In this document: in pieces, positions 1,766 to 29,771 of the stretch | Layout of the letters: each line of letters opens with the position of its first letter | Numbering within the stretch: position 1 is the stretch's first letter | Position numbers and translations under genes: made by a program | From: an uncultured archaeon | GTDB taxonomy: Archaea; Nanobdellota; Nanobdellia; Woesearchaeales; CAIVOO01 | NCBI GenBank assembly: GCA_903904885.1 | Contig: CAIVED010000012.1 | Location: forward strand, 1 to 34,129 | DNA: 34,129 bases | Reading direction: 5' to 3' | Notes under the pieces: model-generated | Databases searched by the model: none | Seen by the model: the letters and a program-made list of their open reading frames with translations, nothing else | What the model was told of the DNA's origin: nothing

Positions 1766-1787
1766 AAAGAGTTGTTAATAACTTAAG

Positions 1788-1797
1788 TATTTAAAAA
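1788..1797 (+). promoter_or_regulatory. possible box A promoter of the type III R-M operon
   Basis: TATTTAAAAA in the 82-base gap before mod resembles an archaeal TATA box. Initiation about 25 bases downstream would leave a leader of roughly 30 bases that includes the AGAGGA ribosome site at about 1835-1840. A second A/T stretch at 1811-1820 could serve instead. Confidence 0.4.
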
Positions 1798-1847
1798 GAA
1801 CAACATTAATAAACATTATATGACAATTAATTAGAGAGGATAATAAA

Positions 1848-4382
1848 ATGTCAAGACCAAAAAAGAATAAAATTCCAATTAAAGAACGTTCAAGTGCTCA
1901 AGAATTTAATGACCAAGTTAAACAATATACCTATGAAGAACAAAAGAGAGTAAATAACCCTCCTGTTGGTTTGGTTACTGCTGAAACCGATCATTTAAAT
2001 GGAATAAAAAAGTATGAATATGATCCTCACTTAGACCCACAATTACAATGGGCGGGAAAAAAAGAAGGAATGAGTTTTGATGTTGATACCGTTTCTCTTC
2101 ACGTTCATGAACGAATAGATCCCTTAACGATTATTGAGAATGTTAAAAAGAAGGAAGAAACTTCGCAGATTCAACTTTTTCATTATTTTGAATCGTCAGG
2201 AAGTAATTTACAAATAAGAGAAGCAATCGAATTCTATAAACACAGCCAAAATTGGTCTAATCGTTTGATTGCAGGAGATTCTCTAATTGTTATGAATTCT
2301 CTTTTAGAAAAAGAAGGGATGTCTGGAAAGGTACAGATGATCTATATTGATCCACCTTATGGAATCAAATATGGCTCAAACTTCCAGCCATTTGTAAATA
2401 AAAGAGATGTCAAAGACAACAAAGATGAAGATTTAACTCAAGAGCCAGAGATGATTAAGGCATTCAGAGATACGTGGGAGTTGGGGATTCATTCTTATCT
2501 AACTTATCTTAGAGACAGATTAAAACTTGCAAAAGATTTATTGACAGAAAGCGGAAGCTGTTTTGTCCAGATTTCAACACAAAATGTCCATCATATTAGG
2601 GAGTTAATGGATGAAATTTTTGGAAGTGAAAATTTTGTCAGCCTAATTGTGTACAGAACTAAAAATATGTCTTTAGATACAAAATATATTGGAACAGTAA
2701 ATGACTTTATTATTTGGTATGCTAAAAAGAAAACTGAAATGAAATATAGGCAGATTTATTATCCCTCTAATGTTGAGGGCGATAATCATTGGAATCTTTA
2801 TGAAATAAATGGTAAAATAAAAGAGATGACTAAAGAACAAATTGAAAATAATAAATTATTACCTGAGGGTTCCGACCCTGTAAGATTGACTGCACTTTAT
2901 CCTATTGGTTATAATGAAAAAAGAGATTATGAAATTGAATTTGAAGGAAAGAAATATAGACCAATAAAAGGAAGATCTTGGAAATTTTCTCCTGAAGGAT
3001 TTGAAAAATTGGCAAGGGCTAAAAGAATAATGCCTTATAAAGGAGGTCAGTTAAATTATGTTTTGAAATTATCTGATTATCCTGTCTCCCCATTACATTC
3101 ATTATGGCATGAAACAGCACCACCGTCATCAAAATTATATGTAGTCCAAACATCGACAACACCTATTCAAAGATGTATGTTAATGACTACAGACCCCGGT
3201 GATTTGGTTTTTGATCCAACATGTGGAAGCGGAACAACAGCTAATGTTGCTGAGGATTGGGGAAGAAGATGGATTACTTGTGATACTTCAAGAGTTTCTA
3301 TAACTTTAGCTAAACAAAGACTAATGACATCCATCTTTGATTATTATGAATTGGCTCATCCTTCCGAGGGTGTCAGTTCAGGATTTAAATATAAAAAAGT
3401 GGCTCATATCACTTTGGGTTCGATTACTGGGGAAGATGTTAGTAATGATGAGACACTTTATGATAAACCCTTAATCGACAAAAAAAGAAAGAGAGTAACC
3501 GGCCCTTTCACTTTAGAAGCAGTTCCATCTCAAAGAGTTACAACTTTTGAAGAAGTTGAAAAGACAGCCCAAGAGCCAGATATGACAATTGCTCGTTCTG
3601 GAGAAACATTAAAACAAAATGATTGGATTGATGAGATGCTCGCAACAGGAATAAGAGGAAAAGCTGGTCAGAAAATAGAATTTACAAGAATTGAAACTGT
3701 TGGCGGAACAAGATATGTTCAAGCAGAAGCAGAAACCAAAGACGGGCAAAAAGCAGTCATCTCTTTTGGCCCTCAATACGCTCCTTTAGAGCAGAGACAG
3801 ATTGAATTAGCAGTTGATGAAGCCCAAACATTAGTTCCTAAGCCAAAAATGGTTATTTTTGCTTCTTTCCAATTTGATCCAGAAGCTGCCAAAGACATTG
3901 ACGAATTAAAATGGCCAGGAGTAAATATCCTAAAAGTTCAGATGAACACAGATTTGCTTACAAATGACTTAAAGAAAAAGCGTTCAAGCAGTGAATCATT
4001 CTGGCTAATGGGACAACCAGATATTGAACTAAAGAAACAAGGAGATAAATATATTGTTCAGGTGAATGGCTTTGATTATTACAATACAAAAACAGGAGAA
4101 ATTGAATCTGGAGATGCTTCAAAAATTGCTATGTGGGAATTAGACACCGATTACGACGGAAGAAGTTTATATCCAAGACAAGTATTTTTCCCAATGGCTG
4201 GAAATGATGAAGGATGGAACAAACTCGCAAAAAGTGTTAAATCAGTAATTGATGAAGAGTTGATTGAACAATATAAGGGAAATAAATCAATACCATTCAA
4301 GTTAGGCAACAATAAGCAAATTGCGGTTAAAATTATTGATGATAGAGGAATTGAATCATTAAAAATAATCAAGGCAGGATAA
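1848..4382 (+). CDS. mod: Type III restriction-modification DNA methyltransferase (Mod)
   Basis: Adenine-specific N6 methyltransferase that recognises the target and methylates one strand in a type III system. The catalytic motif IV DPPYG (168-172) comes before the S-adenosylmethionine motif DPTCGSGTT (456-464), which is the beta-class order expected for Mod. The region between holds the target recognition domain. At 844 residues it is longer than many Mod proteins (about 600-700); the extra length is a C-terminal part after about residue 500 that I do not recognise. ATG 1848 has AGAGGA 8 bases upstream. The stop overlaps the start of the next gene by one base (TAATG), so the two are translationally coupled. 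Codon use is A/T-rich compared with the genes right of 12900, in keeping with transfer. The recognition sequence cannot be read from the protein. Confidence 0.92.
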   Translation: MSRPKKNKIPIKERSSAQEFNDQVKQYTYEEQKRVNNPPVGLVTAETDHLNGIKKYEYDPHLDPQLQWAGKKEGMSFDVDTVSLHVHERIDPLTIIENVKKKEETSQIQLFHYFESSGSNLQIREAIEFYKHSQNWSNRLIAGDSLIVMNSLLEKEGMSGKVQMIYIDPPYGIKYGSNFQPFVNKRDVKDNKDEDLTQEPEMIKAFRDTWELGIHSYLTYLRDRLKLAKDLLTESGSCFVQISTQNVHHIRELMDEIFGSENFVSLIVYRTKNMSLDTKYIGTVNDFIIWYAKKKTEMKYRQIYYPSNVEGDNHWNLYEINGKIKEMTKEQIENNKLLPEGSDPVRLTALYPIGYNEKRDYEIEFEGKKYRPIKGRSWKFSPEGFEKLARAKRIMPYKGGQLNYVLKLSDYPVSPLHSLWHETAPPSSKLYVVQTSTTPIQRCMLMTTDPGDLVFDPTCGSGTTANVAEDWGRRWITCDTSRVSITLAKQRLMTSIFDYYELAHPSEGVSSGFKYKKVAHITLGSITGEDVSNDETLYDKPLIDKKRKRVTGPFTLEAVPSQRVTTFEEVEKTAQEPDMTIARSGETLKQNDWIDEMLATGIRGKAGQKIEFTRIETVGGTRYVQAEAETKDGQKAVISFGPQYAPLEQRQIELAVDEAQTLVPKPKMVIFASFQFDPEAAKDIDELKWPGVNILKVQMNTDLLTNDLKKKRSSSESFWLMGQPDIELKKQGDKYIVQVNGFDYYNTKTGEIESGDASKIAMWELDTDYDGRSLYPRQVFFPMAGNDEGWNKLAKSVKSVIDEELIEQYKGNKSIPFKLGNNKQIAVKIIDDRGIESLKIIKAG

Positions 4383-7192
4383 TGACAACTACAACTCATT
4401 TAATAATAAATAGTCCCTATGAAAAACCAAAACTTCATCTGAAATATAATAGGGAGATAAGAAAATTTGAATTAGTAGAAGGACGAAGGAACGCAGGTTA
4501 TGTTGTTGCTTCTGAACATTCTGAAAGTTTTGATGACCCCGGAATATTTGTTGAATTAGAATTGGCTAATAGAATACGGGAAAGGGTTGATAAATGGAAG
4601 GGAAACGGTTATCCGGGCATTTCTTCAATAACTAGAGACCTTTTAGAGCATTGGAAAAATCAAGAAAGAGAGCTAAAATTTTTCTTTTGCCAAATTGAAG
4701 CTATTGAAACTTTAATCTGGCTGTTGGAATCCCCAGAAAGTGAAAAACAAGGTATAGAAATTCCTCTTGATGGCGGGGAGATGCAAAGAATCTGCTCTAA
4801 AATGGCAACAGGAACAGGAAAAACAATAGTTATGGCCATGCTTATTGCTTGGCAAATCATAAACAAAGTAACTTATCCCAAAGATCAAAGATTCACAAAA
4901 AATGTTTTGATTGTTGCTCCTGGCTTAACAGTTAAAAGCAGACTACAAGTTTTAATTCCTGACTCTCCTGGAAATTACTTTGAAGCATTTGATATTATCC
5001 CTCCAGATTTATTTGATAAACTAAGACAAGGAAGAGTAAAAATAATCAATTGGCACATGTTGGATTGGGACACTCAAGACAGAATAAATAAAAAAATAGA
5101 GAAAGGGACTTTAAGAACAGTAGATAAAAGAAAGAAAACAGAAATAAGCGACGAAGCATATATCAAACAAGTTTTAGAAGAATTAGGAGATTGCAAAAAT
5201 TTACTGGTAATAAACGATGAAGCTCATCATGCTTGGAGAGTAAACCCTGAAGCAAAAGGAAAATATCAAAGGATAGGCGAAGAAAAAGATAGTGCTGAAG
5301 AAGCAACAATCTGGATTAGTGGATTAGACAGAATAAATAAAGCAAGAGGGATCTTGAGATGCCATGATTTTTCTGCAACACCATTTTATCCCTCGGGGAA
5401 AAAAGTAGGAGAAGATCAATTATTTACCTGGATTGTAAGCGATTTTGGTTTAAATGATGCAATTGAATCTGGCTTAGTAAAAACTCCTAGAGTAGTTATC
5501 AGAGATGATGGAAAACTCGACAAAAAAATGAAGTCTAAGTTTTATCATATTTATAATGACCCAACTGTAAAAAGTGATTTAAACAGGAGTGTAGAAGCAG
5601 AAGTTCCACTTCCAGACTTAGTAAGATTAGCATATATACATTTAGGAAAAGATTGGTTAGAAACATTAAAACTTTGGGAAAGATCAACCCCTCCAGCAGA
5701 AGTTCCACCCGTTATGATAACTGTATGTAATAGAACAGAAACTGCCGCAAGAGTGGAGAATGCATTTCTCAAGGGGAAAATTCCAATAGATGAATTAAAA
5801 GATACAGAAAAGACTTTGAGGATTGATTCTAAAATTCTATCTGAAGCAGAAAATAAAGAAACTGGAGACAATGTTGAAGTATCCAACAGACTTTCAAAGT
5901 TAGAGCAGGCAGAATTATTAAGGCAAAAAGTAGATACTGTTGGAAAAAAAGGGAAGCCTGGAGAGAAAATTCAAAATATTATTTCTGTTGGGATGTTATC
6001 TGAAGGATGGGATGCTAAAACAGTAACGCATATTATGGGGTTGAGGGCATTTTCAAGTCAATTATTATGTGAACAGGTTGTTGGAAGGGGGTTAAGAAGA
6101 GTTTCGTATGAAGTTGATGAGGAAACAGGATTATTCAAACCAGAATACGTAAACATTTTTGGAGTACCATTTACTTTCTTACCTCATGAGGGCGGGGAAG
6201 ATACTCCTCCAGAACCACCTAAACCAAGAACAAGAATATTTGTTGATGACACTAAAAAAGAACATGAAATTAAATGGCCTAATATAATTAGAATTAACCA
6301 TATTTATTCTTCTAAATTAACATTAGACATGAAAGAAGTAAAAAGAATAGAATTAAGGCCGGAAGACACCCCTTTTAGATCTGAACTTGCTCCGTTTTTA
6401 GAAGGAAAACCCGACAGTACAAAATTAACAGAGATTAATCTTGGCGATGAAAAAGTTGAAGACATGTTAAAAGTTTTAAGAAAACAGCGATTGATTTTTG
6501 AAATTGCAAGAGATATTTTTGACCAGGTAAAACCGACATGGCCGGGAAAAAGAGAATTTTTGCTGATCCAAATTGTTAAAATTGTAGAAGATTTTATTGA
6601 TTCCAACAGGTTGATAATTAAGGGAGAAACTTATAATGAAGATTTAAAGAAACGCTTATTAATCCTTTTGAACATGAACAAAATTGTTCAGCATTTATTT
6701 AATGCAATTAGATTTGAAAATACTCAAGAGTTAATTCCTATTTTTGATAAGGAAAAACCGATTAAATCTACTTCTAATATGATGACCTGGTATACAAGCA
6801 AACCTTGCGAGTTAAATACCCGCTCAGAGATTAGCCACACTATTTTCGATAGTACTTGGGAAGCGACAGAAGCATTTGAATTAGATAGAAATGAAAACAT
6901 TGAATCATGGGCAAAGAATGATCATTTAAATTTCTTTGTAAACTATGTCTTTGGAGGGGTAATCCACAAATATTATCCAGATTTCCTGATTAAACTGAAA
7001 AATGGGAAGATGCTTGTTTTGGAAATTAAAGGAAAAGATGACCAAAAAAATAAAACTAAAAGAGAATACTTTAAAGAATGGATTGATGCAGTAAATAATG
7101 ATGGTCGTTTCGGAAAATGGGAATTTGATGTTTCTTTCAGAACAGCAGATATAAAAGATATTTTAAAGAAACATAGCGTTAATGCACCTTAA
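4382..7192 (+). CDS. res: Type III restriction endonuclease subunit (Res), DEAD/DEAH helicase plus nuclease
   Basis: ATP-dependent restriction subunit working with the Mod protein encoded immediately upstream. It has a superfamily 2 helicase core: Walker A ATGTGKT with K147, DEAH box at 279-282 within VINDEAHH, motif III-like FSATP (about residue 333), and a motif VI-type segment EQVVGRGLRR near residue 565. The C-terminal part holds a PD-(D/E)XK nuclease: D867 in YYPDFLI and E881-x-K883 in LEIKGK. At 936 residues it has the normal length of Res and looks intact. The start ATG is embedded in TAATG at the end of mod. The gene ends 7 bases from the stop of the converging PLD-like gene. Both halves of the system appear functional by motif content. 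Confidence 0.93.
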   Translation: MTTTTHLIINSPYEKPKLHLKYNREIRKFELVEGRRNAGYVVASEHSESFDDPGIFVELELANRIRERVDKWKGNGYPGISSITRDLLEHWKNQERELKFFFCQIEAIETLIWLLESPESEKQGIEIPLDGGEMQRICSKMATGTGKTIVMAMLIAWQIINKVTYPKDQRFTKNVLIVAPGLTVKSRLQVLIPDSPGNYFEAFDIIPPDLFDKLRQGRVKIINWHMLDWDTQDRINKKIEKGTLRTVDKRKKTEISDEAYIKQVLEELGDCKNLLVINDEAHHAWRVNPEAKGKYQRIGEEKDSAEEATIWISGLDRINKARGILRCHDFSATPFYPSGKKVGEDQLFTWIVSDFGLNDAIESGLVKTPRVVIRDDGKLDKKMKSKFYHIYNDPTVKSDLNRSVEAEVPLPDLVRLAYIHLGKDWLETLKLWERSTPPAEVPPVMITVCNRTETAARVENAFLKGKIPIDELKDTEKTLRIDSKILSEAENKETGDNVEVSNRLSKLEQAELLRQKVDTVGKKGKPGEKIQNIISVGMLSEGWDAKTVTHIMGLRAFSSQLLCEQVVGRGLRRVSYEVDEETGLFKPEYVNIFGVPFTFLPHEGGEDTPPEPPKPRTRIFVDDTKKEHEIKWPNIIRINHIYSSKLTLDMKEVKRIELRPEDTPFRSELAPFLEGKPDSTKLTEINLGDEKVEDMLKVLRKQRLIFEIARDIFDQVKPTWPGKREFLLIQIVKIVEDFIDSNRLIIKGETYNEDLKKRLLILLNMNKIVQHLFNAIRFENTQELIPIFDKEKPIKSTSNMMTWYTSKPCELNTRSEISHTIFDSTWEATEAFELDRNENIESWAKNDHLNFFVNYVFGGVIHKYYPDFLIKLKNGKMLVLEIKGKDDQKNKTKREYFKEWIDAVNNDGRFGKWEFDVSFRTADIKDILKKHSVNAP

Positions 7193-18222: not shown

Positions 18223-18555
18223 TTAAGTATTGCTATTTTTTGGCCATTTGAATTTATCGCAGCCTTTTTCGCATACAGTATATAGGTCATAGGATGAATC
18301 AAGCTGCTGCTCCCACCATTCTGCTGAGCAGTCATGCTCATCCATCTCCTCTCTAAGCGTGCGAAGCTCATATTCATATTGTGCTCTGCATTTTCTGTTG
18401 CATTCTAGGAACTCGGGGCTGTATGTTGCAATTTCCGCCTTGATACTGTAATAAAGCCCTGTGCCCAATGCTGCCAGCGTTCCCGCCACAGCAACCGCAG
18501 CTATTCCAATCAGGCATTTTTTTCCAATTTCTTTTATTCTATTTTCAAGCTTCAT
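18223..18555 (-). CDS. Membrane-anchored protein with twin CX3C motifs
   Basis: 110 residues. One hydrophobic segment (about 14-36) should anchor it with the C-terminal part outside. That part has C52-x3-C56 and C95-x3-C99 separated by a long charged helix with C76 in the middle. Twin CX3C on two helices is the layout of disulfide-bonded helical hairpins. The start ATG 18555 overlaps the stop of the receiver gene as ATGA, so it is coupled to the receiver and, beyond it, to the secreted hydrolase. Function unknown; an outside sensor or surface chaperone is a guess. Confidence 0.65.
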   Translation of the reverse strand: MKLENRIKEIGKKCLIGIAAVAVAGTLAALGTGLYYSIKAEIATYSPEFLECNRKCRAQYEYELRTLREEMDEHDCSAEWWEQQLDSSYDLYTVCEKGCDKFKWPKNSNT

Positions 18556-18965
18556 TGCACTTTTCCATTGCTATCAAAATGCGGCTTTACCTCCCGTTCA
18601 TAGGTCTGCCTGTCCATTTTCAAAAGCTTTGCAATTATCTGTGCGATATTTGCCTCGACTCCGCTGAAATAGTACAGGCCAAGCTCCCTTGCCTCTTCGG
18701 CTTCCCATTTTTCTGAGAAGCCTATTATTAACTCATTGTCAGTTGTAGCCTTTATCTTGAATGCGGTCTGATAGCCGTTAATTGGCGGGTCATGGTCAAG
18801 CACAACTGCATCATACTTATGGTCATGAGCGAGCCTCAATGCAGCCCCTGCGTTGCCAGCCGGGGTAAACTCAACCCTTCCGTTGAATGCCCTCCTGAAT
18901 CTCGGCACATAACTCTCATGGTCGTCATCCACAACCAAAACTTCCAGTTTTTTTGCTTCTGCCAT
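18552..18965 (-). CDS. Stand-alone response-regulator receiver domain
   Basis: 137 residues from ATG 18965, which has GGGGGAGTG upstream; the longer open frame runs into the preceding gene and is not used. Receiver features: VLVVDDDHE acidic cluster, D in VVLDHDPPINGY as phosphoacceptor, and Ser in LIIGFSEKW at the switch position. The usual late Lys is replaced (GLYYFSG), so phosphorylation-coupled signalling may be altered. No output domain. It begins one base after the stop of the GH5/beta-helix gene and overlaps the membrane protein gene downstream, an unusual operon for a receiver. Confidence 0.8.
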   Translation of the reverse strand: MAEAKKLEVLVVDDDHESYVPRFRRAFNGRVEFTPAGNAGAALRLAHDHKYDAVVLDHDPPINGYQTAFKIKATTDNELIIGFSEKWEAEEARELGLYYFSGVEANIAQIIAKLLKMDRQTYEREVKPHFDSNGKVQ

Positions 18966-18966
18966 T

Positions 18967-21900
18967 TTAGCACTCCCCCGGCGCCACCTGGGCGCCATCA
19001 TGATAATTGTTTCCTTTGTTATCCACGCAGAATTTATTGTCTCCTGGCTGCAATACGCCCCCACCATAGAAGTCATTGCTGTAAAAATTATTTTCACTGA
19101 CTTCCTTGCCATAGACAAAAAGGTCTGCTGTATTGTTCAGAATGTTCCCGGTAAATGTATTGCCGATAACTCGGTGGCCCTGTATCTTTGCATTTCTTCC
19201 GAAAAGAAGCTCGCCGATTTTCCACAGATTTCCGTCATTCAAACCGATTCCTGCTTCTGAACTGCCGGAAATTGTGTTGTTTGAAATAACATTTCCTTCG
19301 GATGGTCCCGGTGAAAAAAGGCCCTCCATGCCAAAGCCGAATCCGTTATTCCTCATAACATTCCAAGACACGGTGTTGTTGCTTCCTTCAATTATAGATA
19401 TTCCGGCTCTTGAATTGTTCTCTGCAGTGTTGTTGTAAACCTCTGCGCCTGCGGAATACACCAAAGAAATTCCGTCATTTCCGGAGTTACTGATTGCATT
19501 GTTCCCGTAAACAACATTGTCAAATCCAGCCACTGTAATTCCTGTTCCTGTATTGGCCTGTGCTTTATTCCCGATTATATTGTTCCCAATCCCGATAACC
19601 AGCATGCCGCTGTTGCTTCCGGATACTTCATTGTTTTCCAGCGTGGAATCTATTCCCCCTCCGACAATTCCATTCCCATTATTGTAGGCTTTATTGCCTT
19701 TTATTGTTCCGTAATATGCTGCGAAAACAATTCCCCCGCGGTTATCGTGGACCGTGTTATTTACCAGCTCAAGATTCTTAATTGCGGTCATATTCAGGCC
19801 GTTTTCAAAACCTTCTATGTTGCAGTTCTTTACGGTTATATTTTCAATAAAACCTATTGAGCTGATGAACCCCGCAATATTGTTGATTATCGGGGACATA
19901 TTCTGGAGATTTGAGGTCTTGTTTATCCAAAAGTTCAGATCAAAAACCCCTGATGACGCTACTCCCTGACTGGTTCCTGCACCGATAATATGCGCTCCGT
20001 TGCAGTCTAAAATGACATTGCTGGAATTTATTGTCATGCCTTCCTCAAGGTTATAATCCCCTTCGCAAAAAACCGTATTTGAAGACAAAACAAGATTGCT
20101 GCTTGGCTCTACGCATGATTGGCCCTGGGAATAGGGTGTTAAAGGAAAATTGTCAATCTTTCCGCTTCCAATATTGTAGGGCAAATCGCAAATTCCATCA
20201 TTATTCAGGTTATTGCATCCTTCTGCAGGCTCATCATATTTGCTCCAGTGATTCCCCTGATTGCTGCAATTCCATTTTGTGGTGGAATTTGAAATCAAAC
20301 CCGCATCATTAACATTATTTGCAAAATAATTTCTGCAGACAGTTGTGTTGTAATAATTCGAGGCTGCGCTGCCTGTTAAGCCATAGGCATCATTCAAAAA
20401 AGTGTTGCCTATTATTGAATTGTGCCTGCAGCTGTACCAGCAGTAAATGCCTGAACCCCCATCATGTATGGTGTTGTTTTCAAATAATGTGCCTTCAACT
20501 CCATCAAGGGATACGCACCTGCCCCAGTTGATGCAGGTCAGATTGTTGTTTATTATTGTGCTGTTGTATACTCTTATCAGATATATCACATGATCTCTTA
20601 CGAAATTGAAAGTGTTGCCTGATATCAGCAAATTACTTCCCCTGCCATTCACTCCCAGGCCAACATTATTAATTATTGATGCTGAATTCCCAGTAGCTAT
20701 AAACATTCCATAGTTAAGGGTGTTGTTTATTGCTGTGAAATAATTCCCCACTGCGTTAATCCCTCCGGTAAGATTCAAAATGCAGTTTTTTACTGTAACC
20801 CGGGAATATCCATTAATATCTACTGCAAATGTTGAACGGTTACCGGAAATTGTAGAGCCATTGCAGTCAAGCGCGACACCATTTGCTGCTATGTTTATTC
20901 CATTAGGCAAATAAAAATTGCCATTGCAAAGCGTGGTGTTATAGGTTATGTTCATGTCATCAGTAGGCATAACACATCCGCCAACAAAAACATGGCTGCA
21001 AGTCAAATTCGCCAGGCAGGTGTCCATTGTCAATGGATCCCCATCATCACAGTTCTCCAACATGGTTGTTTCTGCCTGACATTTCCCAGTTATGCACCTG
21101 CCTTCATCGTGCATTATATTATTTAAAGCGCAGTAGCCGCCGTCAAGATAGTCGCATTCGCTATCTGTACTGCAGTCTACACTAAGCCCATTCATGTAAT
21201 CCGCATGATTACTAATCACATTACATACTGAATCTCCCGGACAGAAAACAAAATAACCGTCATTTCCAGCTGCCTGGCTGTCGGCAAGAAGCCAGAAAGT
21301 GTCTCCATTAACACTGTTGCTCTCAATCTCGCTGTAAAATCCAGACATTTTCGCCTGCTTATCAGCAACTGAGCCGAATTCTTCCATTACAACAGGCTTT
21401 CCAATAACACTGTGTGAATCTTCAGCATGCTCTTTAATCCACAATGAATAATTCACATCATCAAATTTTCCCGCTTCAGGATAGTACCTGAATGTTGTGA
21501 AATCAACCGATGGCCACTGGTGATTTGCAATGAAATCCTGGCCTTCATTTCCATGATACCACCAGGACCATTCAGGATCTGAAGGCTTGTTAAGATAACC
21601 GCCATCGCTTCCCGGAGTAACCATATGATTTGAGTCTATTGACTTCACATATGCGCTCATCTCGCCAATCCAGCTGTTAAGCACAACCCCTGTTTTGTTT
21701 GACCTTGCTCTTGGCTCATTGGCAAGCTCCCAGGCAAATATTGTCGGGTCATCTTTGTATTTTATCCCGGTTAATGTATTGGTTCTGTTTAGAAAATAGT
21801 TCACATAACTTTTGTAGATTTGCTTAGTGCAGCTGTTTGAATAAAAAGCGTCATGCACCTGGGTAGGTGTGCCAAACGGCCACGGCTCATCTGCATCGCA

Positions 21901-22362
21901 TATGCTTGCGTTGGTTACATTGCACCATTTGGCATACTGGCACATTCCCCCAAAATTATCCCAATTGTTAACAAGAGGAACAGTAAGCTTTAGATTTCTA
22001 TCAGAAGCTTCTTTTATTATCCGGTCAAACTTTTGGAAAGTGGCTTCATTGTAAACGCCCGGAGAGGTCTGGAATGAATTATAGCTTGCATCACTGCAAG
22101 TTCCGTCGCAGAATCCCCAGGTTCGGATTACTTTAAGGCCGAGGCTGTCAGCATCATCCATAACCTCCTGAACATTGCTCAAGGGCTTGTAAAACAGGTA
22201 ATAATTATTTGCACCGGCAAAATAAAAAGGATTCCCGTTTATTTCAAACTCTGTTCCGCTGGCCTGAACAAAGCCCTGGGCGTTGACAAAGCCCAATCCC
22301 ATCAAAAAAGCAAGAATTAACTGGATTGCTCTTAAGTTTTGAACCAACTGTTTCATTTTCAT
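18967..22362 (-). CDS. Secreted GH5-type endo-mannanase-like enzyme fused to right-handed beta-helix domain
   Basis: 1131 residues from ATG 22362. The ATG at 22374 contains the GGAGG ribosome site for the second ATG, so I take the latter. A signal peptide is visible (hydrophobic ILAFLMGLGF, cleavage near VNA, about residue 27). Residues about 30-370 are a glycoside hydrolase family 5 domain, closest to mannanases (subfamily 7): acid/base E216 in WELANEP and nucleophile E328 in VMEEFG, with the Trp-rich cleft. A Cys-rich linker (about 395-455) leads to two beta-helix modules, each opening with an LC/FC-G-N/D-Y segment and an LDCNG strand, with many N-linked glycosylation sequons. It probably breaks down mannan-like polysaccharide at the cell surface. 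Start of the run that continues into the receiver gene. Confidence 0.85.
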   Translation of the reverse strand: MKMKQLVQNLRAIQLILAFLMGLGFVNAQGFVQASGTEFEINGNPFYFAGANNYYLFYKPLSNVQEVMDDADSLGLKVIRTWGFCDGTCSDASYNSFQTSPGVYNEATFQKFDRIIKEASDRNLKLTVPLVNNWDNFGGMCQYAKWCNVTNASICDADEPWPFGTPTQVHDAFYSNSCTKQIYKSYVNYFLNRTNTLTGIKYKDDPTIFAWELANEPRARSNKTGVVLNSWIGEMSAYVKSIDSNHMVTPGSDGGYLNKPSDPEWSWWYHGNEGQDFIANHQWPSVDFTTFRYYPEAGKFDDVNYSLWIKEHAEDSHSVIGKPVVMEEFGSVADKQAKMSGFYSEIESNSVNGDTFWLLADSQAAGNDGYFVFCPGDSVCNVISNHADYMNGLSVDCSTDSECDYLDGGYCALNNIMHDEGRCITGKCQAETTMLENCDDGDPLTMDTCLANLTCSHVFVGGCVMPTDDMNITYNTTLCNGNFYLPNGINIAANGVALDCNGSTISGNRSTFAVDINGYSRVTVKNCILNLTGGINAVGNYFTAINNTLNYGMFIATGNSASIINNVGLGVNGRGSNLLISGNTFNFVRDHVIYLIRVYNSTIINNNLTCINWGRCVSLDGVEGTLFENNTIHDGGSGIYCWYSCRHNSIIGNTFLNDAYGLTGSAASNYYNTTVCRNYFANNVNDAGLISNSTTKWNCSNQGNHWSKYDEPAEGCNNLNNDGICDLPYNIGSGKIDNFPLTPYSQGQSCVEPSSNLVLSSNTVFCEGDYNLEEGMTINSSNVILDCNGAHIIGAGTSQGVASSGVFDLNFWINKTSNLQNMSPIINNIAGFISSIGFIENITVKNCNIEGFENGLNMTAIKNLELVNNTVHDNRGGIVFAAYYGTIKGNKAYNNGNGIVGGGIDSTLENNEVSGSNSGMLVIGIGNNIIGNKAQANTGTGITVAGFDNVVYGNNAISNSGNDGISLVYSAGAEVYNNTAENNSRAGISIIEGSNNTVSWNVMRNNGFGFGMEGLFSPGPSEGNVISNNTISGSSEAGIGLNDGNLWKIGELLFGRNAKIQGHRVIGNTFTGNILNNTADLFVYGKEVSENNFYSNDFYGGGVLQPGDNKFCVDNKGNNYHDGAQVAPGEC

Positions 22363-22372
22363 TTTTTCCTCC

Positions 22373-22386
22373 ATAGCTAAAGCTAT
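22373..22386. repeat. Palindrome ATAGCTAAAGCTAT upstream of the GH5 gene
   Basis: Six-base arms with a two-base centre, immediately upstream of the GGAGG site. It may be an operator or an mRNA hairpin affecting translation of the secreted enzyme. No clear box A is seen beside it. Confidence 0.4.
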
Positions 22387-22411: not shown

Positions 22412-22801
22412 TCAGCCCAACTCAGGCAATATTTCCTCTGAGTCCCTCAAATGCCTTGCAAATTTTGCGGCATCTGCGCGGGCCCTCTCATACTGAGGAT
22501 CATTAAAAGTCCTGCTAAACAGCTTCCTGCAGCCATCTCCGCCGTTTTTTGAGTAAACCTCAGCTGAAAATCCTCCATTAATTTCACGATTCAGTTCCCT
22601 AAGCGCAATTACGTAATGGTTTTCCTGCTCTTTTTTGCCGGAAATGATAAGGAAGTTCCTTTTTCTGTCCAGGAAAAACAGCTCATTGTCAACAATCCCG
22701 CTGCAGGTGTACTCCCGCTCTTCGCCGTACTCTCCAAGCACTTTCTGGGCGAGCGTATCAAGCCATTCTTCAATCAATACTTCTTCTTCGGGGATGTTCA
22801 T
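22412..22801 (-). CDS. Unrecognised protein coupled to an Lrp-like regulator
   Basis: 129 residues: helical start (EEEVLIEEWLDTLAQKVL), a strand-rich centre (YTCSGIVDNELFFLDRKRNFLIISG) and a helical end. No signal peptide, no recognised motif. ATG 22801 overlaps the Lrp-like stop by four bases (ATGA), so the two are translated together. The GH5 gene follows after about 50 bases. It may be a partner or target of the regulator. Confidence 0.62.
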   Translation of the reverse strand: MNIPEEEVLIEEWLDTLAQKVLGEYGEEREYTCSGIVDNELFFLDRKRNFLIISGKKEQENHYVIALRELNREINGGFSAEVYSKNGGDGCRKLFSRTFNDPQYERARADAAKFARHLRDSEEILPELG

Positions 22802-23232
22802 TCTGGCATGAACCTCTCTCTTTCCTCAACTTTAAGTATCTGGAACGGCTGCAATTCCACTGAAAATTTTGATTTAAGCTGCTCAACCCAGTTTATGAAC
22901 TGAAAGCTGTCCCTGCAGACAACCTCTATGAGGAAGCTAAAGCTTGAATTTGTGTGATAGACTGAATTCACGCATTTCTGCTGCTTCAAAAAGTCCAAAA
23001 CCTCTGATTTTTGGTGGGGGCTTGCCTTTATGGCAACAATATGGTGCGCGGTATAGCCCAGGCTTTTGTAGTCAAGCAGGGATGACCTTTTTGTGACATA
23101 TTTTTCCTCTATTCTTTTCAGCTTGTCCGCAACAGTGGAGATAGGAAGGCTCAACTCCCTTGCGATTGCAGATATGTTCAATTTTTTCCCCTGCCTTAGA
23201 TGCTTCATTATTTCCTTCTCATTCTGGTTCAT
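22798..23232 (-). CDS. Lrp/AsnC-like transcriptional regulator
   Basis: The N-terminus is a standard Lrp helix-turn-helix (NEKEIMKHLRQG, LNISAIARELSLPISTVADKL). The C-terminal half has the strand-helix pattern of an RAM/AsnC effector domain (HIVAIKASPHQKSEVLDFL, VNSVYHTNSSFSFLIEVVC). I take ATG 23232, which begins directly at the domain and has GGGAGATGA upstream; ATG 23250 is the alternative. A TGATATATCA element near 23259 may be its promoter. As first gene ahead of an unknown protein and the secreted hydrolase, it may control that run in response to a small ligand. Confidence 0.78.
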   Translation of the reverse strand: MNQNEKEIMKHLRQGKKLNISAIARELSLPISTVADKLKRIEEKYVTKRSSLLDYKSLGYTAHHIVAIKASPHQKSEVLDFLKQQKCVNSVYHTNSSFSFLIEVVCRDSFQFINWVEQLKSKFSVELQPFQILKVEERERFMPE

Positions 23233-23258
23233 TGAATTTTCATCTCCCATCAAAGTGT

Positions 23259-23268
23259 TGATATATCA
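23259..23268. promoter_or_regulatory. TGATATATCA palindrome/box A ahead of the Lrp-like gene
   Basis: A ten-base perfect palindrome with TATA character, about 27-36 bases before the preferred ATG 23232. It probably serves as box A, and it shares the TGATATAT half with the palindrome at 23865-23882. Confidence 0.4.
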
Positions 23269-23802
23269 CCCGCATCCGCGTTCATATTCCCCTCCTATTT
23301 GTTCAAGCTCAGAAGGGCTTGATTTGATCAGCTCGCCTGGAGACAATACATTTGGTTCTATTCTGTAAGAAACCCTTATGCCTTCTGCGCAGTAATCATC
23401 AAGCGAGAAAGGGCCGGCATATGAATGCTGAAATCCATCTCTCATATTTCTTGTTTCAACTATCGCAACCCACTCTTTTCTCTCGCCTATCCACATCAAA
23501 ACGAATGATTTTCTTGCTAACCCAGCAATCTTCATGGGATATGCAAAGCATGCAGAAACATATGCGCTTTCAGAATCAAATCTTTTAAACCTCGAATAAC
23601 TGACTCTTTTGAAGCCACATTCGCGGGTTATTCCCGGAAGGATTTTTTCATCATAATAAAGCTCTTTTATCTCTTTGGGAATTTCGCTTAATGGGCCTGC
23701 CATAGGAATTTCAAATGGGACAAACCCCCTTTCCTCGGGGTTTATTGCAAGCTTTTCCAGTGCAAGAACAATCTTCCCCCTCTGATTTTTTGGCTCTTCC
23801 AT
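23266..23802 (-). CDS. Unrecognised protein, 178 residues
   Basis: No signal peptide or membrane segment. The centre (SESAYVSACFAYPMKIAGLARKS is helix-like; FVLMWIGERKEWVAIVETRN is strand-like) and the C-terminal VSYRIEPNVLS strand suggest an alpha/beta fold. No motif recognised. ATG 23802 has a weak AGGT upstream. It is transcribed divergently from the AbrB-PhoU gene, sharing a very A/T-rich intergenic region with candidate box A sequence near 23842-23851. Confidence 0.62.
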   Translation of the reverse strand: MEEPKNQRGKIVLALEKLAINPEERGFVPFEIPMAGPLSEIPKEIKELYYDEKILPGITRECGFKRVSYSRFKRFDSESAYVSACFAYPMKIAGLARKSFVLMWIGERKEWVAIVETRNMRDGFQHSYAGPFSLDDYCAEGIRVSYRIEPNVLSPGELIKSSPSELEQIGGEYERGCG

Positions 23803-23864
23803 TTTGACCTGTAAATCTCACAGCTTTTTACGTCAATTTAACATATATATCTATGTGATATAAT

Positions 23865-23882
23865 TGATATATTCATATATCA
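23865..23882. promoter_or_regulatory. Palindrome TGATATATTCATATATCA upstream of the AbrB-PhoU gene
   Basis: Eight-base arms and a two-base centre, ending nine bases before box A of the AbrB-PhoU gene. The position suits an operator, but A/T-rich promoters give such palindromes by chance more often than other DNA. Confidence 0.4.
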
Positions 23883-23891
23883 TTTAGAAAA

Positions 23892-23922: not shown

Positions 23923-24870
23923 ATGAAAAGGAAAGTAATCAAGCAGGGCAACGGAACATTGACCATAACATTGCCTAAGCAGTGGGCTGATGAAGTCGGG
24001 CTGAATAGCGGCGAAGAAATTGAGATAACCATCAGCCAGAACAACCTGATTGTTACTCCGGTTAAATCTATCGTGAAAAAAGAGATAACAATAGATGTTG
24101 ACAAGTTTGAGAGGCTTTCTTTCGCGAAATTTCTCATAGCATGCTATGAGCAGGGATTTGACACCATAGACCTAGTTTTCACAAAATCCCACGTCCAGTC
24201 CTGGAGCCACGGAAAGGAGCAGGTTAACGATGTAATCAACTTTTTTGTTACAAGGCTGATAGGATTTGAGGTTTTGAGCCAGACTAAAAACAAGGTAAGA
24301 ATAGGCAACATATCAAAGGAATATGTAAAATTTGAAAGCATAATGTCACGAATATTTTTTCTGATAGAGGAATATCTCTCAACACTCATAACAGCATTAG
24401 AAACTAATAATCATGAATCATTGTCGGAAAGAGAAAACCGCCATGACAACATAACAAAACTGGTTGCCCTGGGATGCAGAATAGTCCATGATTCAACCGA
24501 GTTTTCAAAGGTTGAAGCAATGAATCTTGTAACAATCCTGAATCTGCTGGACAAAATAACTGACTTCATAAGATATGCCTGCAAGTACACTTCTTTGTAC
24601 AATAAGAAGGTAGGCAGCGACACAATTAAAACTGCCAAGAAATCCTTCAAGTTCCTTGAGTCATACAGGCATTTCTTCAATAAATTCAGCTATGAGGCAA
24701 TAAGCGAACTTGATGAGCTGAGAGGGGATGTAAAAAAATCTTATCTTGAATGCGTACAAAACTGCCCGAAAGAATCAGCAATAAATTCAAATTTTGATGC
24801 ATTGGTTGAAACACTTCATGGGGCAATAAAGACAAGGATTGCGATTGAATTAGCGAAGAAAGAAGGTTAA
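23923..24870 (+). CDS. AbrB-like DNA-binding domain fused to PhoU-like domain
   Basis: 315 residues. Residues 1-48 form an AbrB/SpoVT swapped-hairpin domain (VIKQGNGTLTITLPKQWADEVGL, GEEIEITISQNNLIV). The rest is a long helical bundle of PhoU type, with acidic helix faces such as ESLSERENRHDNITKL that in PhoU proteins bind metal clusters. Archaeal proteins of this layout are thought to regulate phosphate uptake. No pst transport genes lie nearby. Leaderless promoter at 23892-23903. The gene converges on the large repeat protein without overlap. Confidence 0.85.
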   Translation: MKRKVIKQGNGTLTITLPKQWADEVGLNSGEEIEITISQNNLIVTPVKSIVKKEITIDVDKFERLSFAKFLIACYEQGFDTIDLVFTKSHVQSWSHGKEQVNDVINFFVTRLIGFEVLSQTKNKVRIGNISKEYVKFESIMSRIFFLIEEYLSTLITALETNNHESLSERENRHDNITKLVALGCRIVHDSTEFSKVEAMNLVTILNLLDKITDFIRYACKYTSLYNKKVGSDTIKTAKKSFKFLESYRHFFNKFSYEAISELDELRGDVKKSYLECVQNCPKESAINSNFDALVETLHGAIKTRIAIELAKKEG

Positions 24871-27800
24871 TCAGCGAAAATCAGAAAAATCTCCATTCTT
24901 AAGCATATAGTGCATCGCATTGATAAAATAATTTCTTCTTGCGGTTATTTCTCCACTTTCCATTTGCTTAACCCTTTTTCTTGTGCAAGATGCATAAACA
25001 CTAAGCGACTTAAGAATTGAAGGATCTGTGAGCGCAAGCATTTCTTTCTTATGCAAATCCTTTTTTGCAGCGAATTCAGGATCATGAAGCGACCTCATTT
25101 CTACATAGGCTTTCACATAATTTTTTGTTGCACCCACCGGTATTCCCAGCCTCGGTTCTACCAGCCCGTATGTTATATCATCAATCTCCAAACCATGCCC
25201 CGCAACTGCAAAATCAAGCATATATTCATTACAAGTATTTTCAATTATCTTGTTGTCCCCAAGAATAATTGGCAAATCTTCATTCAGCTCCGCATACCGA
25301 ACAAAATTGCTAATTATTCTCCCGCTTTCACGAATTAAGCTTTGGGGCACAGTCCTCATTAAAGTTCTATAAACATTATTGCTGGTTTCTTCAAGAGGGG
25401 ATTTTATTGCTTCATAATGAGGCATTCCAAAAGGAGTTCCGTATTTAACATCTGGAAATTCCGTCAATGTTTCTTCGGCAGCTAACCTAATCTCTTTATG
25501 GGCAAGCCCAAGCATGAAAAGGTTAAGCATTGCTGCATCATGACCCATATGCCCCGTCTTCCAAAGAATATTTTTTTCTGTTAACGAGCGGAATATTTTT
25601 CCAGCAATTACACTTCCTGGCGCTCTCTTGGCAAGATTGGCTAGCACTAGCATGCTTAATCCGTCATCCAGCTGCAGGACTTCTCCTTTTTTTTCTGAAA
25701 TTAATTTACCAAATTCCAAAAGGTTTGGTTTAAGAGAGTAAATGCGGTTTTCTGCTTCATTTTGTTCTGGCAAAGCAAGTTTAACAACATCATCTGTCAC
25801 GCTTACTACATTATAAGAAGTGTATCCTCCTTCCAGGAATGTTTCCGGGTGTTCCCTTTTGAATCTATGAAGGTCTATAAGCATATGGGTTATCTGATCC
25901 CGTTCGTAGTCTTTAAGGTCCTTATAATTTTTTTCAACAAAATCGCTAATGCGTTCTGCATTGTTCGAATGAATTTTTCTTTCCTCTTCTTTAAATATCT
26001 TTTTGAGCATCTGGTCTTGATAGTGCTGTGCTCTTGCTGCCATTGCAATATTAAACAATCCTTGGGGATTTTCTAAATCATCTAAGATACTCAATAATCC
26101 ATCAGAAAATGCCAAATAGTTATCCTCAATACTATTATTATATTCTTTTATTGATTTTGCATCTCGCTCAATTATGGAAAGATATATTTTTTCAGCTTCT
26201 TCAGGCAATTCTCTTGCAAGGAAATGGAGACTTCTACTTAATATATAATTGCAGTTATTTTTAAACATGTTATCATAAACAGCAACTACCTCCGTAGGTT
26301 CAACAAAACCTAAACTAATCAGTTTAGTTAAAGCCTGCATAGAATTACATAACTGTCTCTCTTCTTTGGATTTTAATGAATCAGCATACAATCTCATTAC
26401 TTCATTTGCATTGATTTTCCCTGAAGGAATGATGTCTGCTAAAGAACCAATATCTCTTGCTGCAACATGCAGAGTTATCCCTCCTTGAGATATTGCTTTA
26501 TCATAAATAGCGATAACCTCTTTTGATTGAACTTTTCCCGAAAGTATAGCTTCAGCTAAAGAAGCCAAATCAACTGGAGAACCTCCACCTTGTCCATTTT
26601 GTTTTTCAATAATCTTATGATACAGATTAATAATTCTTTTAGAATCAATTTTGCCAGAAGAAATTCCTTTAGACAGGTTTCCTAAACTCTGTGCTGCAGC
26701 TGAAAAGGGGGCATACTTCCCACTTCTTTGATCAACAGGAAAGTCTGACCAAAATTCAACCAGAGTTAATAATGATTCCGTATTAACATTGCCTGAAGCA
26801 ATCCCCTCTGCTAATCCCCTTATTGCACGAGAACAAAAAGCAAAATGAAGTTTTATCACTTTTTCAGAATCAATATATCCTTCAGACGCAACTTTTCCTA
26901 ACTCATCCAAAAATGAGTCCAATGCAACTTGTTCATCATAATTACCTCTATCAATAAGTTCTCTACAAAAATTAATAACCGCATCGGGATTTATCTTGCC
27001 TGACGGTATCGCTTTTGCTAATGAAACAAGAACCAATTCTTTATGTTTAAAAGATTCTTTAGTTGCAAGCACATCATAAAATAAATCAAGAACAACATTA
27101 GGATCGATATGTCCTGAAGGAATTAGATTTGCCAAATCTCTCAAAGCGACTATGGGTTCATAATTAATTTTTTTTTCTTTTTTAAGTGCGGATTTATAAA
27201 AATTTGCAACTACATCAGAAGAAATTTTGCCTGAAGAAATTAATGGAGCAAATTTGCCAAGATTTGAAAAAACTGCCTTTTCAGTATCCTCATTATTAGA
27301 TAACTCACCACATAATTGGATAATATCTTCAACACCAAATTTGCCTAACTCACTCAAATGTAAAAGAATTCCAAAAGAATCTTTTACTGTTTCAGGATTG
27401 TCTAGCTGTTCTCTGCAAAAATCAGCAACTTGCATAAAATCGGTTTTTTCTGATTTTAAGGCATTTTTAAGATATCCAAAATCGAGATTTACTCCTTTAG
27501 ACCTAAGATCTCTGTGCAATTCAATAACTTGGGACAAACTAACCTTGCCAAGTTGAAGCAACTCATCCAAGTAGCTAGTCCATCGCACGAGCAAGTTTCG
27601 GCTAGTTGAGATATGCCGGGGGTTTGCAATTACACTCCGCTTATACAGATCTAAAACTTTATCCATATCCAAATCAATAAAATTGGCAGATCTCATCAGA
27701 AGAGCAACAAATTCAAGGCTTCGTGGAAGATTAGCAAAGTATAGTTTTAAAACACTTGGAGTAAAATTTTCAGCAAAATCCAAAAATATTTTTTCATTTC

Positions 27801-28266
27801 TCCCAATAAAATTAAGAAAACTAATATTATCATCATTAAAAAAAGTAGTTAATATTTCTTCGGGGGTCATTAATGCTGATTGAAATTTACTTCCACAGCC
27901 TTTTACAAGATTGTCTGCAGAAAGAACAGCAAGAGAAGCATCTGGAAAAAGGCCATGGTCCGCAATCAATTCCAGAATATTTGATCTAAAACGAGCAGAT
28001 AGATAGTTTTCAATTTTAAAAAATAGGGAGGAATGATGAGCTTCATTTGGATCATCTGGAGGAGCAAACTGATCTGGTGAGTGGCTATTTGCAACAATAA
28101 AATTTTGATAGTTATACTCATTAGCTAAAGCTTTGATAATCAGCTCTGCATGAGTTTCTTGGTCATCAATATTTCTAAAACCTATATGTTCAAGATTCAG
28201 CCCTTTTTCCTGAGATGTAACATTTTCTAGACCTTTTCTAAATGCATTTCTAATTTTAGATCTCAT
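24871..28266 (-). CDS. Large helical-repeat protein with kinase-like, probably degenerate, C-terminus
   Basis: 1131 residues. From about 230 to 670 there are nine or more repeats of about 37-42 residues with consensus L-A-x2-I-x-SGKI-x4-VI-x-LY-x3-I (for example IPSGKINPDAVINF and ISSGKIDSKRIINLY), an alpha-solenoid similar in feel to PPR or HEAT repeats. Near 1003-1025 the C-terminus has LGDNKIIEN followed by YMLDFAVAGHGLEIDDITYGL. This resembles the HGDWKEDN and VDFAMVGLGFEVDELAY of the kinase encoded next door, but the catalytic His is lost and the loop is one residue longer. ATG 28266 overlaps the kinase stop as ATGA. I infer a scaffold or substrate-binding pseudokinase partner. No signal peptide. 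Confidence 0.72.
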   Translation of the reverse strand: MRSKIRNAFRKGLENVTSQEKGLNLEHIGFRNIDDQETHAELIIKALANEYNYQNFIVANSHSPDQFAPPDDPNEAHHSSLFFKIENYLSARFRSNILELIADHGLFPDASLAVLSADNLVKGCGSKFQSALMTPEEILTTFFNDDNISFLNFIGRNEKIFLDFAENFTPSVLKLYFANLPRSLEFVALLMRSANFIDLDMDKVLDLYKRSVIANPRHISTSRNLLVRWTSYLDELLQLGKVSLSQVIELHRDLRSKGVNLDFGYLKNALKSEKTDFMQVADFCREQLDNPETVKDSFGILLHLSELGKFGVEDIIQLCGELSNNEDTEKAVFSNLGKFAPLISSGKISSDVVANFYKSALKKEKKINYEPIVALRDLANLIPSGHIDPNVVLDLFYDVLATKESFKHKELVLVSLAKAIPSGKINPDAVINFCRELIDRGNYDEQVALDSFLDELGKVASEGYIDSEKVIKLHFAFCSRAIRGLAEGIASGNVNTESLLTLVEFWSDFPVDQRSGKYAPFSAAAQSLGNLSKGISSGKIDSKRIINLYHKIIEKQNGQGGGSPVDLASLAEAILSGKVQSKEVIAIYDKAISQGGITLHVAARDIGSLADIIPSGKINANEVMRLYADSLKSKEERQLCNSMQALTKLISLGFVEPTEVVAVYDNMFKNNCNYILSRSLHFLARELPEEAEKIYLSIIERDAKSIKEYNNSIEDNYLAFSDGLLSILDDLENPQGLFNIAMAARAQHYQDQMLKKIFKEEERKIHSNNAERISDFVEKNYKDLKDYERDQITHMLIDLHRFKREHPETFLEGGYTSYNVVSVTDDVVKLALPEQNEAENRIYSLKPNLLEFGKLISEKKGEVLQLDDGLSMLVLANLAKRAPGSVIAGKIFRSLTEKNILWKTGHMGHDAAMLNLFMLGLAHKEIRLAAEETLTEFPDVKYGTPFGMPHYEAIKSPLEETSNNVYRTLMRTVPQSLIRESGRIISNFVRYAELNEDLPIILGDNKIIENTCNEYMLDFAVAGHGLEIDDITYGLVEPRLGIPVGATKNYVKAYVEMRSLHDPEFAAKKDLHKKEMLALTDPSILKSLSVYASCTRKRVKQMESGEITARRNYFINAMHYMLKNGDFSDFR

Positions 28267-29771
28267 ACAAACCTCCCTTCTTTTGCAACCTTCTCAACCA
28301 TATACTTGTAATACTGCCTCTGCCTGAACTTGCTGTCATCCATCATGTCACGCTTGTTCATTACGCTGTGCCTCAGCACAAGCTGAGACAAGAATGCAGC
28401 ATCTGCAATTTTATGCATCTGCTGCCCATAACCCTCGTTAACACGATAGCTGAACTCAACATCCTGCGATGACCTAAACCTGATGTAGTCGTCAACAAAC
28501 CCATGAAACTGCTCCAGCCCAAAACCAAACCTCGCATCAGACAAGTAATACGCCAGCTCATCAACCTCAAAGCCCAAACCAACCATGGCAAAATCAACAA
28601 GATGGCCATTGACAACATTATCCTCCTTCCAATCTCCGTGAATGACAGAGCCCGCCTCCAATTTTTTTTGATGGTTATAACCGTCAACAACCGGAACAAC
28701 TTTTGCGGTATCAACTTTTGTTTCACTAAATCTTCTCCAGCCTTCCCCGGAGACATTCAAAAACGGAGTTATACCCTCATTAACATGAGACAACCCGTGA
28801 ACCCCCGCACACACAACCGGTTCAAAAGAACCTTTATGCCTGCCAGCTTCCCTATGAAAAACAGACATCAAGAAAAGATTATAAAAAATATCATGTTTAT
28901 TGAATTGTGTCCCAAATAATTTATTCATTTTAACAAAACCCCGCTCATAAAGAAGCAGATTGTCCATTGCAATAATTGCAAGATCATAGCTGTCGCTTGC
29001 AACAAACTCGCTCGGGTTTAAATTTGCCCTGAAATTGCTAAAAACACTGAGTTCCATGCAATAGGCTGAATACTCCGGCTTTAGCCTGGAGGACAAATCA
29101 ACCTTGATAAATTTATCCTTAAACACAAAGCCTGTTCTGCTTGTGAAATTTCTATCTGAAACAATTATCTCGCTTAAACTGTCGGGAGAAAGTCTTGCCC
29201 TTTGCTGTATCTCTTTCGCTATAAAATCAGTTTCTTCACCGCTCAGTTTCCCGCGAGGGTCCAGCTTTTGTATAAACCTTTCAACAAGATTGTCAACATG
29301 TTTTGGATGTTCAGATAATATCTGGTTAAGCGACTCAATTACTGCATCCGGGCCTCCCATGCCTATTGCTCCGCTGCTTAAAATATGACAATCCGGAATA
29401 AGATGTCTCATTAATAGCTTTGAGTCCCCGGAGCCCCCGGTTAAGAATATGAACTTTGGTGAGCTAAAATTTCTCCGGAAATATTCATCAAGAGCGCTTA
29501 TGGAATGAGCACTTTTAGAATAACTTATGGGAGTTTTTGGTTCATCATTAAACGGAAATTGGGTCACTATAAAATCAAAAGGGCCAAATTCCTTAAAGTC
29601 CCCGCCCATAATTTCATCCGCTGCCGACCAAAGATTCCCATACGGTTTAACTGTTGAAAAACGATAGAGAGAATTGACTATGGCCCGGAATTGCTCTGCA
29701 ACTAAACGTTCCATCTGAGTCCCGCTTGAATATAAATCCAACATTCGATGAATGAATACTCCGTGCTTCAT
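28263..29771 (-). CDS. APH/choline-kinase-like phosphotransferase with N-terminal extension
   Basis: About 502 residues from ATG 29771. The C-terminal 300 residues fit the aminoglycoside phosphotransferase-like kinase fold. FKDKFIKVD near residue 218-226 is the ATP-binding Lys strand. H378-G-D380-W-K-E-D-N385 is the catalytic loop (H-G-D-x4-N), and D393 in VDFA is the metal-binding Asp. Such kinases phosphorylate small molecules or proteins. The N-terminal 180 residues match nothing I know; FLTGGSGDSKLL there is not a true P-loop. Box A at 29794-29803 places initiation at about 29774, so the mRNA is near leaderless; a GTG at 29777 is the other possible start. It is coupled to the solenoid gene by ATGA. 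Confidence 0.78.
   Translation of the reverse strand: MKHGVFIHRMLDLYSSGTQMERLVAEQFRAIVNSLYRFSTVKPYGNLWSAADEIMGGDFKEFGPFDFIVTQFPFNDEPKTPISYSKSAHSISALDEYFRRNFSSPKFIFLTGGSGDSKLLMRHLIPDCHILSSGAIGMGGPDAVIESLNQILSEHPKHVDNLVERFIQKLDPRGKLSGEETDFIAKEIQQRARLSPDSLSEIIVSDRNFTSRTGFVFKDKFIKVDLSSRLKPEYSAYCMELSVFSNFRANLNPSEFVASDSYDLAIIAMDNLLLYERGFVKMNKLFGTQFNKHDIFYNLFLMSVFHREAGRHKGSFEPVVCAGVHGLSHVNEGITPFLNVSGEGWRRFSETKVDTAKVVPVVDGYNHQKKLEAGSVIHGDWKEDNVVNGHLVDFAMVGLGFEVDELAYYLSDARFGFGLEQFHGFVDDYIRFRSSQDVEFSYRVNEGYGQQMHKIADAAFLSQLVLRHSVMNKRDMMDDSKFRQRQYYKYMVEKVAKEGRFV

Follow-up and report, generated by a model that had tools for sequence, protein, structure and literature searches.

Two kinase genes and their products

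The window analysed here, a stretch of 34,129 nucleotides from an uncultured archaeon of the order Woesearchaeales, carries two overlapping kinase genes, an AbrB-PhoU regulator gene that converges on them, and a conserved DNA element between this regulator and a divergent operon (Table 1). Genomes are labelled with G-numbers, G000 being the source genome of the window, which was searched as 1.31 Mb in 44 contigs.

Table 1. Features of the kinase/AbrB-PhoU locus, in window coordinates
Feature	Position	Strand	Basis or remark
Lrp/AsnC-like regulator in divergent operon	22798..23253	-	shares 53% identity with a regulator of the G233 divergent operon
First gene of divergent operon, 178 aa, no Pfam match; candidate regulated target	23266..23802	-	36 bp beyond the element
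Wider block of intergenic conservation that includes the element	23809..23884	.	four-genome comparison
Ultraconserved 44-bp element TTAACATATATATCTnnnnGATATAATTGATATATTnnTATATC, GATATA inverted repeats; probable operator	23838..23881	+	four-genome match
AbrB-PhoU regulator, 315 aa	23923..24870	+	Pfam MazE E=5.8e-10; AlphaFold; Foldseek
Solenoid-kinase protein, 1131 aa	24871..28266	-	ORF; AlphaFold; Foldseek
Kinase domain of solenoid protein	24874..25959	-	alignments; invariant S817, K829, E839, D1004, K1006, N1010, D1018
Catalytic loop LGDNKIIEN (D-x5-N) of solenoid protein	25237..25263	-	LGDNK[IL]xEN conserved in G233, G438, G463
ATGA stop/start overlap of both kinase genes	28263..28266	-	sequence
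Upstream APH-like kinase	28263..29771 (ATG, 502 aa) or to 29777 (GTG, 504 aa)	-	ORF; Pfam APH E=0.0017
Catalytic loop HGDWKEDN of upstream kinase	28617..28640	-	sequence and alignment

The two kinase reading frames and their ATGA overlap are present as a sequence-only reading had described them. GGGAGG lies immediately 5' of the overlap, and thus of the second start, and a TATA-like box, TTTATATA, is found about 27 nt 5' of the ATG of the upstream kinase (29771). The motifs HGDWKEDN...VDFA and LGDNKIIEN...LDFA can be aligned with each other, and the homology claimed for the two proteins is well above chance: in BLASTP the C-terminus of the solenoid protein matches the upstream kinase over 222 residues at 25% identity (E=2e-14), and a genome search also links them (E=2.3e-12). 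The upstream kinase, which has its own N-terminal domain besides the kinase part, agrees with the HGD-x4-N consensus and scores 18.6 bits against Pfam APH (PF01636), below the gathering score of 23.2. Its closest relative, at 44%, is in G453.

The 1131-residue protein consists of an alpha-helical, HEAT-like solenoid (approximately residues 1–765) followed by a C-terminal APH-fold kinase domain (approximately 770–1131). An unrelated fold at this C-terminus had been set beforehand as the result that would speak against a kinase-like lobe; the AlphaFold model instead has the two lobes of a kinase, with pLDDT of about 80–95 in this domain and lower values in the solenoid. Foldseek matches the kinase domain to the APH kinases 3csv (prob 1.00, TMt 0.51), 6fuc and 6fux, and the remainder of the model to karyopherins and other HEAT-type solenoids. 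Pfam search gave no APH match for this protein, and a PDB sequence search for relatives of the kinase returned 3csv alone (E=0.23). Among relatives the solenoid sequence is poorly conserved and the kinase domain well conserved, as would be expected if a variable input domain were joined to a constant output domain.

The same reading called the C-terminal lobe broken and degraded, a description that the alignment does not bear out. A further six genomes of the order contain relatives of the kinases, and in the resulting alignment of eight kinase domains the Ser of the G-loop, the beta3 Lys, the alphaC Glu, the GD pair that holds the catalytic Asp, the Lys at Asp+2, Asn and the DFG-type Asp are all invariant. 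The solenoid copy departs from the HGD-x4-N consensus in carrying Leu for His and one extra residue before the Asn (LGD-x5-N), and LGDNK[IL]xEN..N.Y..DFA is common to all four solenoid proteins; both oddities are also seen in stand-alone relatives, one in G453 (LGDWKPEN, with Leu for His) and the other in G381 (MGDLKIPEN, with D-x5-N), such that the consensus varies already within the family. A pseudokinase is recognised by the loss of at least one catalytic residue, and the alignment reveals no such loss in the solenoid kinase domain. As every canonical kinase residue checked is kept without change in the eight family members, we do not call this kinase degraded, and a pseudokinase tail is rejected. 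An active kinase of the APH fold, with a GDxKxxEN loop like that of protein kinases, is the most likely identity of the protein; its D-x5-N spacing could weaken metal binding.

A kinase gene does overlap the gene of a giant alpha-solenoid protein with the same C-terminal fold, and we found no description of such an arrangement, in agreement with the view that this is not a described system. The further proposal, that the solenoid guides the upstream kinase, finds no support in phylogeny or synteny. In the tree, the two window kinases sit in separate clades, the upstream kinase with that of G453 (100/100) and the solenoid kinase with those of G438, G463 and G233 (97/97). Neither G233 nor G463 has a kinase 5' of its solenoid gene (the G438 contig ends inside the gene), which rules out the upstream kinase as an obligate partner, and G453 lacks a solenoid and has its kinase facing its own AbrB-PhoU. 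The homolog search that had been recommended for the pair recovered relatives of each kinase; no copy of the upstream kinase was found in the solenoid relatives in which it could be checked. A scan of genome contigs found only three MAGs, corresponding to G438, G463 and G233.

The convergent AbrB-PhoU gene and its partners

The evolutionarily constant partner of the solenoid-kinase is not the upstream kinase but the convergent AbrB-PhoU gene, which the earlier reading overlooked. The stop codons of the two genes abut at 24870/24871. Kinase and AbrB-PhoU are directly convergent in six of the seven close-family genomes, with gaps of -33 to +5 bp, and in the seventh, G363, a single 254 aa gene separates them. 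The AlphaFold model of the regulator (pLDDT 91.6) opens with an AbrB/MazE hairpin domain and closes with a six-helix PhoU bundle, and the part between them is of mixed alpha/beta structure. Its best 17 Foldseek matches are 1sum, annotated as hypothetical, and 16 PhoU or PhoU-like chains, with MazE of MazEF (1ub4_C, prob 1.00) at rank 28. The AbrB/MazE DNA-binding domain is found in all 30 aligned AbrB-PhoU members, and Pfam PhoU in just 5 of them.

AbrB-PhoU is present in 302 of 353 genomes of the order. Its neighbourhoods were sampled by simple ORF calling on loci ranked by similarity to the window's AbrB-PhoU, with several loci per genome, flanks of 1.5 kb for part of them, and four loci (L055–L057, L060) contributed by the kinase search. 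In this sample a convergent gene lies 3' of 67 of the 79 AbrB-PhoU genes, often with a 4-bp overlap, as compared with 80 of 233 control genes (34%) from the same stretches (Fisher p=3e-15). Among the convergent partners, 63 have a length of 140 aa or more; they include 22 guanylate-kinase-like proteins, 10 APH, 6 Hanks-type kinases and 3 PEP-utilisers, the remainder being HAD, NUDIX, HEAT-like or unclassified; these labels denote sequence clusters, of which Pfam backs only part of the members. Since non-kinases are among the partners, pairing need not mean that the regulator is phosphorylated. Partner type follows the AbrB-PhoU tree, with 28 changes against 47 when shuffled (0 of 200 shuffles as low), and the APH partner taken alone requires 2 changes against 9.6. 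The partners at L044, L074 and L082 have apparent receiver-like domains ahead of the guanylate-kinase-like domain, a hint of phosphorelay input, and L081 and L087 hold tandem AbrB-PhoU paralogues with a convergent partner beside only one of them.

Searches that start from the kinases lead back to the same regulator. A profile search of 371 genomes of the phylum matched kinases in nine, of which six are convergent with AbrB-PhoU: those of the source genome and G233, and distant kinases in G153, G022, G220 and G267. In G141 the kinase gene follows, on the same strand, a gene that is only weakly PhoU-like, and this search showed no AbrB-PhoU beside those of G006 and G056. In the guanylate-kinase family, the genes of eight large multidomain proteins converge on AbrB-PhoU within the fetched sequence and G036 provides a ninth (locus L098), whereas none of the short stand-alone guanylate kinases is convergent with it in the stretches fetched. 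A general association between protein kinases and AbrB-PhoU can be rejected, as the 30 Hanks kinases with the highest scores in the order all lack an adjoining AbrB-PhoU in the fetched stretch.

The conserved DNA element and the divergent operon

The 44-bp element is present in exactly one copy in each of the four solenoid-kinase genomes (G000, G233, G438 and G463), with 0 mismatches in its 38 specified bases, and it always lies at the AbrB-PhoU locus, 23–41 bp from the divergent start. The pattern was derived from three of the four genomes, so that only G438, which matches it perfectly as well, counts as independent. A search of 59 further genomes of the order, a set without G381 and G363, gave no match even when up to 3 mismatches were allowed; the exact long element was not found in G453. 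Third codon positions of AbrB-PhoU are only 36–46% identical among the four element genomes, and recent transfer therefore does not explain the identity of the element; the best 44-nt coding window of the gene has 31 identical columns in these genomes. The surrounding block of conservation extends into the promoter/leader of the divergent operon. In G438 (L015:3024-3504), where the AbrB-PhoU start codon is ambiguous, the element remains with the divergent gene and the AbrB-PhoU promoter, approximately 440 bp away, keeps a GATATA-N4-TATATC half, an arrangement that fits an operator serving both directions. The element is thus probably an operator, and its position suggests AbrB-PhoU as the binder. 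Upstream of AbrB-PhoU genes in general, a palindrome signal was seen in 30 of 79 cases against 70 of 238 control upstreams, which is not clearly above background. Rfam gave no structured-RNA match in the window.

Divergent operons differ in content between genomes yet share some genes: those of G233 and G463 have in common a histidine phosphatase and a 286–289 aa protein, and radical SAM proteins are encoded in those of G233 and G438. Adjoining the divergent operon of the window (18967-22374) is the gene for a secreted-looking protein of 1135 aa with right-handed beta-helix/NosD repeats, the N-terminus of which resembles a glycoside hydrolase; the corresponding G233 cluster contains a GH113 gene. 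A response-regulator receiver-like domain (E=6.7e-5, below the Pfam cut-off) is encoded at 18552-19118, in an ORF that overlaps the beta-helix gene at its end. Farther off, at 62-7192, genes for a UvrD_C/PD-(D/E)XK protein and, after it, an N6/N4 DNA methylase and a ResIII helicase resemble a type III restriction-modification cluster.

A candidate signalling module and its relation to known systems

We consider it somewhat probable that the locus is a sensor-kinase/transcription-factor module of Woesearchaeales with its own operator. In such a module the HEAT-like solenoid would sense or dock a signal for the C-terminal kinase, which in turn would modulate DNA binding by AbrB-PhoU through phosphorylation, via the PhoU-like helical domain. 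AbrB-PhoU would bind the GATATA-repeat operator and in this way repress or activate both the divergent operon and its own promoter. The 502 aa kinase encoded upstream may be a second family member acquired at this locus, and perhaps another input to the same regulator. A precedent for a kinase acting on AbrB-PhoU is AbrB of Bacillus, a substrate of the Hanks kinases PrkC, PrkD and YabT (PMC6213207); that its phosphorylation modulates DNA binding is stated in the title of a study cited in that paper. A broader generalization is more tentative, and we regard it as possible rather than probable: each AbrB-PhoU factor of the order may have as its counterpart a phosphotransferase that is encoded convergently and is interchangeable in kind (APH, guanylate-kinase-like, Hanks or PEP-utiliser), with varied input domains and dedicated operators, in a two-component-like scheme without histidine kinases.

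The main rival to phosphorylation of the regulator is a small-molecule messenger, in which a small molecule or nucleotide, once phosphorylated by the kinase, serves as the ligand that AbrB-PhoU reads. The APH, guanylate-kinase-like and PEP-utilising families usually act on small molecules, and the extra alpha/beta middle part of AbrB-PhoU would suit such a role; we nevertheless find this improbable, given the protein-kinase-like Lys at D+2, invariant in the close family, and the six partners that are Hanks-type protein kinases. Next comes a toxin-antitoxin module of HipBA type, with the kinase as growth-arresting toxin and the MazE/AbrB-domain protein as antitoxin and repressor. AbrB/MazE is indeed a classical antitoxin fold and HipA a kinase toxin (PMC2701414), but the genes here are convergent and do not form the single operon of the HipBA type, and the regulator has 315 aa and occurs across most of the order with very varied partners. 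Moreover, the portion of a published survey on which we draw names PIN, MazF, Fic/Doc and RelE as AbrB partners, and no kinase (PMC2701414). We therefore think this quite unlikely.

Two other readings are given equally little weight. Convergence could stem from common ancestry alone, or let the two genes control each other in antisense, the proteins being biochemically uncoupled, as overlapping 3' ends can work through antisense transcription and some partners are not kinases; that partner family follows AbrB-PhoU subclade, and that kinase-first searches recover the pairing, argues otherwise. Regulation of an active upstream kinase by a pseudokinase-solenoid scaffold from the same operon would account for the overlapping genes and for the His-to-Leu and spacing changes of the solenoid copy. 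Against it stand the invariant canonical residues, the G-loop Ser included, the recurrence of LGD in G453 and of D-x5-N in G381 among stand-alone kinases, and the solenoid relatives of G233 and G463, which have no such upstream kinase. As for other identities, a defence system was rejected on finding no PADLOC match, and a viral origin because viral contigs contained no relative by protein patterns and no exact copy of the element.

Such modules would bear on sensing and response in small-genome DPANN archaea. Most sampled AbrB-PhoU genes have a convergent partner, in many cases a kinase-type protein, and if each pair is a sensor kinase with its transcription factor, then inputs, operators and regulons are predicted for many unannotated genes. 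For the solenoid-kinase subfamily the candidate operator is already a precise sequence, occurring once per genome. The components of the locus are of known kinds, while the fixed convergent pairing, the interchangeable phosphotransferase folds and the unique ultraconserved element appear to be undescribed; in the open-access literature, to which our search was confined and which excludes subscription papers and preprints, we found no paper joining Woesearchaeota with AbrB and no account of such a pair. The locus suggests a little-known archaeal signalling module.

In fold and in the order of catalytic motifs, the window kinase is like the APH/choline-kinase-like phosphotransferases (PF01636; 3csv, 6fuc, 6fux), from which it differs by its score below the Pfam gathering threshold, its protein-kinase-like GDxKxxEN loop, its fusion to a HEAT-like solenoid and its place beside a DNA-binding gene. 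AbrB-PhoU has the six-helix fold of the PhoU phosphate-signalling proteins (1t72, 2i0m, 4q25), to which it adds the N-terminal AbrB DNA-binding domain and the middle alpha/beta part; no phosphate-transport genes were found among the window ORFs tested. HipBA modules also combine a kinase with a DNA-binding partner, but here AbrB takes the place of an HTH antitoxin, the genes are convergent and the kinase belongs to another family. To our knowledge, the Bacillus subtilis genes for AbrB and for PrkC, PrkD and YabT do not form a conserved pair. That system is comparable to the window pair in having an AbrB-type regulator as kinase substrate (PMC6213207), whereas the archaeal pairing is fixed and draws on varied kinase families. 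Finally, as in bacterial two-component systems, a sensor kinase is coupled with a cognate DNA-binding regulator and many such pairs occur per lineage; in contrast to those systems, there is no histidine kinase, the kinase module is interchangeable between unrelated folds, and the genes are convergent.
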